Below, one piece after another: positions 13,691-30,950 of a stretch of 38,590 nucleotides of DNA. The stretch comes from an uncultured Methanobrevibacter sp. (GTDB taxonomy: Archaea > Methanobacteriota > Methanobacteria > Methanobacteriales > Methanobacteriaceae), in NCBI GenBank assembly GCA_902764015.1, contig CACWUH010000041.1, positions 1-38,590 on the forward strand, given 5' to 3'. Position 1 is the first letter of the stretch; each line of letters opens with the position of its first letter. The notes beneath the pieces are model-generated. The model saw only the letters and a list, made by a program, of their open reading frames with translations. It was not told where the DNA came from and searched no databases. The translations under genes were made by a program, and so were the position numbers.

Positions 13691-13763
13691 TGAAATATTG
13701 GAAAATATAGTAAAGTATTTAAACTATTAGTTACCAATATTTTATTATACTTTTTTAGTTAGT

Positions 13764-13834
13764 GGCAAGTTTACCGAGTGGCTAGGTGTGTGGCTGCAGA
13801 CCATAATACGGGGGTTCAAGTCCCTCACTTGCCT
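13764..13834 (+). tRNA. tRNA-Cys (GCA)
   Basis: Full cloverleaf of 71 nt: acceptor GGCAAGT 13764-13770 with ACTTGCC 13827-13833; D stem ACC/GGT; anticodon stem TGTGG/CCATA with loop CTGCAGA and anticodon GCA at 13796-13798; T stem GGGGG/CCCTC with loop TTCAAGT 13815-13821. The discriminator base is T (U73) at 13834, the known identity base for tRNA-Cys. CCA is not encoded. It stands directly before, and overlaps, the cysteinyl-tRNA synthetase frame. Confidence 0.96.
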
Positions 13835-15161
13835 TTTTAATAGTAAAGAGGACTTTAAAACAATTAATGACAATAGGGTCAATCTGTTTGTTTGCGGTCC
13901 TACAGTTTATGACGATGCCCACATCGGGCATGGAAGAACTTACATTTCCTTTGATACAATTAAAAGATATCTGGAATTCAAGGGATATGCCGTATTCTAT
14001 ATTCAAAACGTTACAGACATTGACGATAAGATAATCAACCGCTCAAAGGAAAGCGGAATTCCATCTGATATCCTGGCACGAAGATTCGAGAAAAGATACC
14101 GTGAAGACATGGCAAAACTGAATGTCAACGGAGTCAATCTCTTTGCAAGGGCAACAGACCACATGCCTGAAATAATCGACCAGATTCAAAGGCTAATCGA
14201 TAAGGGCTTTGCATATGAAACCGACGATGGTGTATACTTTGAAATAGATACCTTTGAGGAATTCGGAAAGCTCTCAAACAGGAATGTGGAAGAGCTTGAA
14301 TCACACAGGCAAATAGCTGAAACCACCAAGAAAAATGACCAGGACTTTGCTCTGTGGAAAAAGCGTGAAGGCGTGGACGAACCTACCTGGCCGTCCCCAT
14401 GGGGTGACGGAAGGCCGGGATGGCACATTGAAGACACTGCAATCACTGAATTCTACTTCGGCGAACAGTACGATGTCCATGGAGGCGGACTTGACTTGAT
14501 TTTCCCTCACCACGAAGCGGAAATCACCCAGATGGAAGCCGTATCAGGAAAATCCCCTATGGTAAGGTACTGGCTTCACACAGGATTCCTGAATGTAAAC
14601 GGAGAGAAGATGTCAAAATCACTGCACAACTTCATCACAATCCGTGAATTGCTTGAAAGCTATGAGCCTGACACTTTCAGATTCTTTGTACTGTCAACCC
14701 ATTACAGAAGTCCTATTGACTTTTCAAAGGATTCTTTGCATCAATCAGAAAGAAGCCTGGACAGAATCAGGAAATACTACGAGCTTCTTGATGTCGATGT
14801 GGAATATGAGGAATTTGAATGCGACGCTTTGGCTCCTCATAAAAGGGAATTCTTCGACAGCATGGATGATGACTTTAACACTCCAAAGGCCATTGCTGCA
14901 ATCTTCGGTCTGATCAATGACACCAAAAATGAATTGGGCGATTATTCCGATGAGGATAAGATAGCCATCAAGTCATTTTTGGATGACGCTGCACATATTC
15001 TGGGAGTCAGCTTCGAATCCGTTGAAGTGAATGCCGGTTCGGATGATTTGCTCAATCTGATTTCTGATGTCAGGTCAGAACTCCGGGCCAACAAGCAGTA
15101 TGACCTGTCCGATAAGATTCGCGCTAAACTGCAGGAATTGGGCTATGAGATTAACGATTAG
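13788..15161 (+). CDS. cysS: Cysteinyl-tRNA synthetase (5' end unresolved)
   Basis: Charges tRNA-Cys. The conserved core starts at about 13881 with VNLFVCGPTVYDDAHIGHGRTY (HIGH motif HIGH), with zinc-binding residues C in VCGPT and HGGGLDLIFPHHE. The KMSKS motif is exact in GEKMSKSLHN. The C-terminal helical anticodon domain is intact to 15161. The problem is the start: between the tRNA end (13834) and the core no ATG, GTG or TTG is in frame. The only canonical in-frame start is GTG 13788, inside the tRNA. ATT at 13863 is a non-standard alternative. The short N-terminal strand before the core (LFNSKEDFKTI) looks a few residues shorter than usual. The catalytic part is sound. Confidence 0.9.
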   Translation: MWLQTIIRGFKSLTCLFNSKEDFKTINDNRVNLFVCGPTVYDDAHIGHGRTYISFDTIKRYLEFKGYAVFYIQNVTDIDDKIINRSKESGIPSDILARRFEKRYREDMAKLNVNGVNLFARATDHMPEIIDQIQRLIDKGFAYETDDGVYFEIDTFEEFGKLSNRNVEELESHRQIAETTKKNDQDFALWKKREGVDEPTWPSPWGDGRPGWHIEDTAITEFYFGEQYDVHGGGLDLIFPHHEAEITQMEAVSGKSPMVRYWLHTGFLNVNGEKMSKSLHNFITIRELLESYEPDTFRFFVLSTHYRSPIDFSKDSLHQSERSLDRIRKYYELLDVDVEYEEFECDALAPHKREFFDSMDDDFNTPKAIAAIFGLINDTKNELGDYSDEDKIAIKSFLDDAAHILGVSFESVEVNAGSDDLLNLISDVRSELRANKQYDLSDKIRAKLQELGYEIND

Positions 15162-15301: not shown

Positions 15302-15397
15302 TTCTGATGAATACAAATTAACCATTACAAAAAATTATTTTCAAAAAATAGTTATTTTAATTAATTTTATTTTTTGGAAAAAATGGAGAAAATAAGT

Positions 15398-15973
15398 ATG
15401 TTCGGAATATATTCAAATCAAAGATTGAGCAAAGAGGAAAGCAAAATATTGAAGGAAAATCCTGATGACTACAACTGGTACTGCATCTATGTTCAGACCA
15501 TTTTCAGGGATCGACGGTTCTTCCAGGTAAGGGAGGACATTGAGCTTCCCCAAAGCGAGGATGATGATGGTGTTGTCCTGATGTTTCAGGGAGGTGATGT
15601 CGTCTATTTCAAGACAATGGACGGGGATGTGACCAATGAAGAAGTGCAATCAGTATATGATGTCTGTTCTTATTTGGAAGGACTTTTCAACCGTCCTATT
15701 AAGGCATATGTGGTTTTCCCTCCGGATGGTGAAATTAAGGCCGATAAAATCGAGGGGGATGGTGAAGTAACCATAGTATTTTCAACCTTAAGGAATGACG
15801 ATGGTGAAGAAATCATCGAAAGATTGGAAAGCAAGCTCAAAAACCATGAGGAATTCACAATTCCTGATTCAATCGATCACATGCTCCTTCCATACACCGG
15901 TTTCAAAGATAGAAAGGTCTTTGATGAAAAATTTAAGAATTACATGAATCTTGTCATGGAGTACGGGGGGTGA
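15398..15973 (+). CDS. Tandem paralogue family, member 1 (unknown)
   Basis: About 191 residues. Shares one domain with the next two genes: FQVREDIELPQ, an acidic turn then GVVLMFQGGDVVYFK, an EEVQSVYDV helix, a strand IKAYVVFPPDGEIK, an E..I.RLESKLKN helix, and HMLLPYTGFKDRKVF near the end. No known family is recognised. No signal peptide or membrane helix is seen. Possible starts are TTG 15374, ATG 15383 and ATG 15398; 15398 is chosen because GGAG lies 9 bases before it. First gene of a three-gene run with overlaps or short gaps. Confidence 0.75.
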   Translation: MFGIYSNQRLSKEESKILKENPDDYNWYCIYVQTIFRDRRFFQVREDIELPQSEDDDGVVLMFQGGDVVYFKTMDGDVTNEEVQSVYDVCSYLEGLFNRPIKAYVVFPPDGEIKADKIEGDGEVTIVFSTLRNDDGEEIIERLESKLKNHEEFTIPDSIDHMLLPYTGFKDRKVFDEKFKNYMNLVMEYGG

Positions 15974-15977
15974 GAAA

Positions 15978-16649
15978 ATGCTTAAGGATAACTTAGATAA
16001 AATCAGCGCAGAGGAAGAGGAATTCTTCTATAATGTCATGATGAGTCCGGGATTCAATATCCACTCTCCATTTGAAGTGGGAAAGGACATTGATTTTCCA
16101 AAAAAGGATGAGCTTGGAGGGGTTGTGCTGAAGTTCATTGGCGGAGGCGCAGCCTATTTCAAAATACAGACAGAAATGCCGAGTCAAGAGGAAGTCCAAT
16201 CAATATTTGAGGTGGGGCTATTTTTGCAGGAATCCTTTGGGGATTATGTTGTCTTAAACATATTGTGCATGCCGGATATTGAAATCCGTGATATTAAAGT
16301 AATATCCAATGAGCATTTCGGCACAGATTTCCTTTCACTTCGAAAATTGGATGGCATCGAAGTTCTCGACTCATTAATCGACAAACTCGAAAACAATACG
16401 GATTTCACCATTGATGACCATATCCTCAGAATCTTTCTTCCATTTGCCGGCAGGAAAAACGAAGATGAATTTGAATGCAAATATTCAAAATTCCTTGATT
16501 TATATGCTCGAAGTGGTTTGCAAACGCCTCCTGTCAGCAGGCTGGTTGAATCAAACTTTTCCATTGCACGCTGGTTTTCAGATGATATGGTTTTTGATTT
16601 TTCCATTTTTCAAAACAGGCACTTGCCCTTTTCTAATCTGGGGGAATGA
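15978..16649 (+). CDS. Tandem paralogue family, member 2 (unknown), altered tail
   Basis: 223 residues from the ATG at 15978, which follows GGGGGGTGAG and lies 4 bases after the member 1 stop. Shared blocks: FEVGKDIDFPKKDELGGVVL, GGGAAYFKIQTEM, EEVQSIFEVG and HILRIFLPFAGRKNEDEF. After about residue 175 it carries some 45 residues (SGLQTPPVSRLVESNFS to NLGE) without counterpart in members 1 and 3. The tail is rich in F, S and R and may be a replaced or out-of-frame end. An in-frame ATG at 15951 lies inside member 1 and is not preferred. Confidence 0.75.
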   Translation: MLKDNLDKISAEEEEFFYNVMMSPGFNIHSPFEVGKDIDFPKKDELGGVVLKFIGGGAAYFKIQTEMPSQEEVQSIFEVGLFLQESFGDYVVLNILCMPDIEIRDIKVISNEHFGTDFLSLRKLDGIEVLDSLIDKLENNTDFTIDDHILRIFLPFAGRKNEDEFECKYSKFLDLYARSGLQTPPVSRLVESNFSIARWFSDDMVFDFSIFQNRHLPFSNLGE

Positions 16650-17263
16650 CCATGGTGTTGAATCCGGATTTGAGACCTGAAAAGAGGAATTTTGAGGAAG
16701 TGACAAACATTCTTTTCGGAGGCAGTGACAATGCAATTTTCTATAAGGTCATATTGGCATTTGTCTTTAAGGAATTCGGATCCTTTGAAGTGAGACGGGA
16801 CATTGAAATTCCAAGAAAAGATGATAATGGTGTGGCACTGTCATTTGATGATGGAAGGATTGCTTATTTCAAAATACAATCAGAGCAATTAAGCGATGAG
16901 GAATATGAATCAATGCTGGATGTCTGCTACTTTCTCCAAGACAGGTTTGGCGGTTCAATCGATGCATATGTCCTGTGCCGTCCTGAAATTAAAATAAGGC
17001 CATATGGGGGCATTGTGGGCGATGACGTTACCTTGAGGTTAACGGGTCTCAATAACTATGATGGAGATGAAATCCTTGATGAATTGGAAACCAAACGCAG
17101 AAACAAGGAAAGATTCACCTTCCAGGATTGCATCCATCACATTCTTCTTCCATACATGGGTTATAGGGATAGGGATGTGTTCTTGCCTAAATATCAGCAT
17201 TATATGATGGAGACTATGTTCGACAATGCTGAACAACATGGAATTGAAGTCTTTCGACTTTAA
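16646..17263 (+). CDS. Tandem paralogue family, member 3 (unknown)
   Basis: 205 residues. Overlaps member 2 by ATGA (16646-16649), a sign of translational coupling. Met 16652 is another possible start, nearer to GGGGGA. Shared blocks: FEVRRDIEIPRKDDNGVALSF, GRIAYFKIQSEQLSDEE, SIDAYVLCRPEIKIRP, DEILDELETKRRNKERFT, HHILLPYMGYRDRDVF. The order acidic strand / GV-L-F / YFKIQ could recall PD-(D/E)xK folds, but the catalytic set is not clear, so no nuclease is claimed. Confidence 0.75.
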   Translation: MTMVLNPDLRPEKRNFEEVTNILFGGSDNAIFYKVILAFVFKEFGSFEVRRDIEIPRKDDNGVALSFDDGRIAYFKIQSEQLSDEEYESMLDVCYFLQDRFGGSIDAYVLCRPEIKIRPYGGIVGDDVTLRLTGLNNYDGDEILDELETKRRNKERFTFQDCIHHILLPYMGYRDRDVFLPKYQHYMMETMFDNAEQHGIEVFRL

Positions 17264-17288
17264 TTTCACTTTTTAGGTGGTGTTTTTG

Positions 17289-17801
17289 ATGAATGAGAAA
17301 AATAGGAGAATAATATTACTGGAATTGGCTTTGCATAGGTATGATGAGGAAGTAGAAAGAAATAAAGCCACTGATAATAAAAATAAGTCAATGGTAGCAT
17401 TTTTAGCAGTAATGTTGACAATTCAATCTACAATTCTCATTCGATTGATTGAATTCAATGGATTTATCAGAAGTGATGAAATGAATTTCTTGGTGATGTT
17501 GTTCATTATTTCATTTGTTTTTAATTTGTTTTCATTATTATGTTACCTTTCAACTTTGAGATATCTAAACATGCTCAAATCATCTCCTAAAATTGATAAT
17601 CTTGTATATTTTGGGATTAATAAAACTCCTTTTGAAAATATAATTGAGAATACAATTGTAAGTTTAAATAAATCTGTAAAAGAGAACAAAAGTATATTAA
17701 AAGAGAAAAGCGCTAAAGAAAATTATGGGATTATATTTTTAAGGTTGGGATTAATTGCTACAACAATATTTATAATGTTGTTTGTATTAATATTATTATA
17801 A
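17289..17801 (+). CDS. Three-helix membrane protein (unknown)
   Basis: 170 residues. An N-terminal amphipathic charged helix (to about 33, LELALHRYDEEVERNKATDN) is followed by membrane helices at about 34-55, 66-88 and 147-169, with a 60-residue charged cytoplasmic-type loop between the last two. The frame opens at GTG 17277, but AGGTGGTG is placed for the ATG at 17289. The layout resembles small membrane effectors seen beside nucleotide-signalling defence genes; no sensor or cyclase gene lies nearby, so this is only a shape resemblance. It follows member 3 of the paralogue run by 25 bases and is much AT-richer. Confidence 0.7.
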   Translation: MNEKNRRIILLELALHRYDEEVERNKATDNKNKSMVAFLAVMLTIQSTILIRLIEFNGFIRSDEMNFLVMLFIISFVFNLFSLLCYLSTLRYLNMLKSSPKIDNLVYFGINKTPFENIIENTIVSLNKSVKENKSILKEKSAKENYGIIFLRLGLIATTIFIMLFVLILL

Positions 17802-18136: not shown

Positions 18137-19377
<1,241 letters not shown>

Positions 19378-19380
<3 letters not shown>

Positions 19381-30120: not shown

Positions 30121-30950
30121 ATGATACACGTGGAAAATAAAGATTTAGTTATTCCAGGTCAAATATTGGCCGATGACGAATACTATTCAGGAAGAGGTAC
30201 CTTTAAAGAAAACGGTAAAATTTGTTCTTCCTTGTTAGGGCGAGTTTCTTTGAGGAATAAAAAAATTAGAGTTATTCCTTTAAAAAGCAAATATGTTCCT
30301 AAGAAGGGAGATGTTGTAATCGGTAAAATTAAAGATGTCAGATTCTCAATGTGGGACGTAGACATCAATTCACCATATTCCGGAATTTTACCTGCCTTTG
30401 AAGTGTTTGGTCGTGAGAAAAAAGAACTCAACAAGGTATATGATGTTGGGGATGTGCTATTTTTAAGAGTTGTCGATGTTGATTAATCGGTAAAAAAGGC
30501 TCAATGATTAACATGATTAAGGACAAAACCAAATGTAAAATCGTCGTTGGTCAGAATGGTCTTGTATGGGTTAAGGGAAACGAAGATATGGAACAGCTCA
30601 CCCGTGAGATAATTCATTTGATTGAAGCTGAAGCTCATACTTCTGGTTTGACAAATAAAATCAAAAACAAATTGTACCTGGCTATCGATGGCGAATTGCC
30701 GCCTGAAGAGGTTGAGGAAACCGAAGAGGAATTTGTTTTGGAAAAACCTAAACTTCAAAATTTCAAAGAAGAATTAGAACAAGAAGAAAAAGAAGCTGAA
30801 GAAAACGCAGCAGAAGAAGAAAAAGAGAAAAAGGAAAAACCAGATATTGGTGAAGTTATTGAAGAATTTAAAAGAAAAAATAAAAGCAAAGATGGTTCAC
30901 TATCCTATGGTGATAACTCAAACAATTCTTTCATATTGAATAATAAATAA
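30121..30950 (+). pseudogene. rrp4: Exosome subunit Rrp4, broken by an internal loss
   Basis: RNA-binding cap subunit of the archaeal exosome. Frame A (30121-30486) gives the N-terminal domain and most of the S1 domain ([40 protein letters not shown]) and then hits TAA at 30484. The KH domain continues in another frame from TTA 30483 ([39 protein letters not shown]). The end of S1 and the S1-KH link, about 30-35 residues by family comparison, are missing; the loss is 1 mod 3. ATG 30504 could restart the KH part. The tail is a long Glu/Lys-rich run (about 85 residues). In a live archaeon this is surprising, so sequence error is a real option. Confidence 0.88.

Follow-up and report, generated by a model that had tools for sequence, protein, structure and literature searches.

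The DNA analysed here (the window, 38,590 nucleotides) is one of the 156 contigs of a draft genome (G000, 84% complete) of an uncultured Methanobrevibacter sp., and it carries a conserved cysteine cluster composed of cysK (11590), cysE (12598), a gene for a small helix-turn-helix (HTH) protein (13304), tRNA-Cys and cysS, with metY, nifS and nifU farther on from cysS. This ordinary cysK-cysE-HTH-tRNA-Cys-cysS cluster is the real feature of the locus. An inverted repeat lies between the HTH gene and tRNA-Cys, at 13694-13741, with arms AATATTGG and CCAATATT separated by 32 nt; of 61 genomes in the genus, 32 contain the exact arms and 31 have them at the same spacing, and the repeat is possibly an operator for the adjacent HTH protein. 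Four open reading frames without NCBIfam or Pfam matches occupy positions 15374-17801, between cysS and metY, a stretch that has no match at the same place in most syntenic relatives. The coordinates of the features around cysS, and of two other genes discussed below, are given in Table 1.

Table 1. Features of the cysS start region and of the two other interrupted genes in the window
Feature	Position	Strand	Basis or remark
tRNA-Cys (anticodon GCA), intact	13764..13834	+	ARAGORN and Rfam both
GTG inside tRNA-Cys, sole canonical start in the open frame	13788..13790	+	frame reading
TTTTAAT, remnant of the tRNA-cysS leader	13835..13841	+	comparison with relatives
Deletion junction, 51 nt absent versus G037/G063/G051/G049	13841..13842	+	1-nt (T) ambiguity
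cysS (cysteine--tRNA ligase) without first nine codons, otherwise intact	13842..15161	+
metY-type O-acetylhomoserine sulfhydrylase, 5' fragment, ends at 58-nt frameshifting deletion	18143..18328	+
metY-type gene, 3' part, other frame	18329..19380	+	TIGR01326 match in 18625-19377
rrp4 (exosome subunit), 5' fragment, ends at 97-nt frameshifting deletion	30121..30483	+
rrp4, 3' part, other frame	30484..30950	+

The first-pass annotation of this DNA had reported that cysS lacks a canonical start downstream of the tRNA, and our reading of the frame confirmed it: no ATG, GTG or TTG lies in the CysRS frame between the tRNA end (13834) and the conserved core. From 13836 the frame reads TTT AAT AGT AAA GAG GAC TTT AAA and continues ACA ATT AAT GAC AAT AGG GTC AAT CTG. 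It is also open upstream, through tRNA-Cys, and its GTG at 13788 falls, as had been stated, inside the tRNA gene, which ARAGORN and Rfam both place at 13764-13834. The 71-nt tRNA-Cys sequence is identical in two relatives (L010 and L022). At 153 nt before the core, ten relatives (G063, G040, G018, G049, G051, G037, G043, G053, G008 and G062) carry the same GTG in frame, and all ten have a normal ATG. Judged from these sequences, the GTG is mere tRNA sequence and not likely to be a start.

We compared the locus with 62 other Methanobrevibacter genomes in which the 5' end of cysS is readable. In every one of them an ATG stands exactly 75 nt upstream of the VCGPTVY core, 61 have a GAGG, GGAG or GGGG site at most 20 nt before that ATG, and none shares the start-less tRNA/cysS arrangement. 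The annotation had named extra bases with an ATG between the two genes in close relatives as what would refute it, and the relatives show just that, the ATG being present in 62 of 62 comparable genomes. Since tRNA-Cys lies just upstream of cysS in 54 of these genomes (ARAGORN), the pairing is an old and ordinary one; tRNA-Cys is incomplete or cut at a contig end in 3 more, and in five divergent genomes it was not detected within 400 nt upstream of cysS. The leader from tRNA to ATG is short in relatives (~29-42 nt), so that the two genes are probably co-transcribed. In another draft of the genus (G051, L006) this tRNA-Cys gene lacks its 5' end when compared with the close relative G037.

Alignment with the closest relatives located the difference. 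In G037, TTTTAAT is followed by 51 nt, comprising leader, GAGG, ATG and the MEIYSTLTR codons, and then by AGTAAAGAG, with flanks closely matching the window; in the window itself, TTTTAAT (13835-13841) is joined directly to AGTAAAGAG (13842 on). The absent 51 nt thus correspond to the remaining leader with its GAGG site, the ATG and nine codons (MEIYSTLTR or MDVYSTLTR). Because this piece is absent by comparison with those relatives, whose flanks are the same, the missing start is not due to chance composition. Only this draft has the deletion, with which the normal start is lost, and several gene-breaking deletions, this one among them, occur in the draft.

Beyond the junction, cysS is well preserved. 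Its product scores 472.8 bits against TIGR00435 (profile positions 10-455 of 466), so the catalytic core passes the curated cut-off of 340, and it contains no internal stops. What is missing is the initiator methionine and the N-terminal h-Y-N/S-T-L-T-R segment, the alignment beginning at profile position 10, and a YNTLTR-type motif is kept there in nearly all readable homologues across archaeal and bacterial phyla. The dN/dS of cysS is 0.015-0.045, similar to that of relative-relative pairs; these ratios are rough, synonymous sites being close to saturation. The remainder of the gene is thus under normal, strong purifying selection and is not decaying. cysS is a single-copy gene in this draft; within the genus 37 genomes have a completeness of 90% or more, and all 37 contain it. 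A second cysS, or another copy that includes the missing piece, was found nowhere else in the draft; one exact match to the YSTLTR pattern (C118:3267) was dropped, its surroundings being unlike cysS. A bypass of CysRS through SepRS and SepCysS was also considered and set aside: in the draft, 84% complete as it is, both are below cut-off. In the genus a SepRS above cut-off occurs in just two divergent genomes (G025 and G066), nearly all of the genus falling below it, and weak sub-cut-off matches occur in most control genomes as well. Since neither enzyme was found, CysRS is probably essential in this organism.

The cysS deletion does not stand alone. We compared the window with six syntenic relatives, 30.4 kb being aligned to at least three others, and found three deletions that are seen only in the window and in none of the relatives covering them: 51 nt in cysS, 58 nt in metY (18328/18329, absent from 6 of 6 syntenic relatives) and 97 nt in rrp4 (30483/30484, absent from 5 of 5). 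Both the metY and the rrp4 deletions frameshift strongly conserved genes; the 5' fragment of rrp4 matches NF003181 over profile positions 1-121 of 221, and its junction has a 3-nt (GAT) ambiguity. Applied to the six relatives themselves (~177 kb), this test yielded no deletions of 20 nt or more versus at least three others. We then aligned the window and 20 other contigs of the draft, 249 kb in all, with the one-contig genome G008. Deletions of at least 40 nt inside G008 reading frames numbered five in the draft, and over the same 249 kb G008 had none. Outside the window they are an 83-nt deletion, also frameshifting, in an hdrA-type gene (C1:1216/1217, L166) and a 48-nt deletion in purP (C4:4180, L169), both unique to the draft, since all other genomes of the genus that matched carry the stretch and lack this gap. 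Three of the five are on this one contig, and so they are clustered. The junctions have 0-3 nt of homology, which speaks against long direct repeats as the driver; hairpins were likewise discarded, the cysS and metY segments folding no better than shuffled sequences. A chimeric contig was also considered, and nucleotide identity to the relatives, taken in 500-nt steps, did not clearly switch at the junction in cysS. The contigs sampled (~438 kb) contain no N.

Of the three alternatives in the annotation, the suggestion that a small deletion had fused the two genes therefore matches the sequence, but its likely cause shifts from biology to assembly, because two further deletions in the contig, missing from relatives, break conserved genes. 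We put the probability that the 51-nt gap is an assembly error, and not a mutation, at roughly 0.9. A methanogen with CysRS, Rrp4, HdrA and PurP all broken could hardly live, to judge from the known roles of these enzymes, and since a cell could hardly lack all these genes, the deletions are best read as blocks lost in assembly. The living organism would then have the ordinary tRNA-Cys, short leader and ATG-started cysS of its relatives, and the draft contig would have lost 51 nt at the leader, a piece that included the ribosome-binding site and the first nine codons with their ATG. The fault may have been a short gap closed or dropped, or a chimeric read join at low coverage; joins with so little homology are consistent with dropped or wrongly closed gaps. 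Against an artefact it can be said that 51 is divisible by three, that the frame stays open and that three of the five deletions cluster in this one contig.

A real deletion, in all its forms together, is improbable. In the form with most to recommend it, still a very unlikely one, a genuine recent deletion would leave CysRS to be poorly made from a non-standard start such as ATT 13863, as a protein ~17 residues shorter, with AGAGGA (13847-13852) as the ribosome-binding site. AGAGGA does lie ~10 nt before this ATT, and the remaining cysS is conserved, but in relatives AGAGGA is plain coding sequence (codons for KED), the product would be without the motif of nearly all readable homologues, and cysS appears essential. 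The ATG in 62 of 62 comparable genomes left this start, which the first-pass annotation had offered, without support, and likewise its idea that tRNA and enzyme synthesis compete on one transcript. Under that idea translation would begin at GTG 13788, uncut transcripts giving enzyme and processed ones tRNA, with a regulatory competition between them. The frame is indeed open through tRNA-Cys; yet at least ten relatives with a normal ATG and ribosome-binding site share this in-frame GTG, and the extra residues, VWLQTIIRGFKSLTCLFN, are translated tRNA without counterpart in other CysRS proteins, which makes this start scarcely credible.

A genuinely pseudogenic cysS in this strain, with Cys-tRNA supplied by another enzyme, we regard as highly unlikely. 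With 84% of the genome in hand such an enzyme could lie in the missing part, but SepRS passes its cut-off only in G025 and G066, SepCysS is under it in this draft, and cysS has a normal dN/dS and no internal stops. Equally doubtful is a real lineage that has lost the CysRS start by deletion and translates the enzyme from within tRNA-Cys or from some non-standard codon, with enzyme and tRNA production tied to one transcript. A genuine deletion with a non-standard start, moreover, would leave the frame-breaking deletions in rrp4, metY and the hdrA-type gene in need of another cause.

The start-less cysS is thus almost certainly not a real feature, and the finding is an ordinary one. It serves as a warning, since at least three block deletions in this contig make conserved genes look broken, and any further odd gene end or fusion in it calls for comparison with relatives before being taken as biology. 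The G051 tRNA gene suggests that other drafts may contain errors of this kind too. A real deletion would leave an apparently essential synthetase with no canonical start, which would be unusual.

A literature search for tRNA-Cys/cysS overlap found nothing. The nearest comparison is with the pair in relatives (e.g. G037, G063 and G022), which has the same tRNA, the same synteny and the same CysRS from codon 10 onward, but ~51 nt more, with the GAGG, the ATG and nine codons that the window lacks. A tRNA-Cys adjoining the genes of its charging enzymes, as here, is also known from SepRS/SepCysS operons (PMC5424206), where SepRS and SepCysS take the place of CysRS and no start-codon overlap is described. 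Finally, assembly errors are a documented source of apparent pseudogenes, with assembler, platform and coverage among the named causes (PMC11017572). As in the false pseudogenes of public genomes described there, conserved genes look broken here, most probably through assembly errors, but while that study treats frameshifts and internal stops generally, this draft appears to have lost whole blocks of 48-97 nt.
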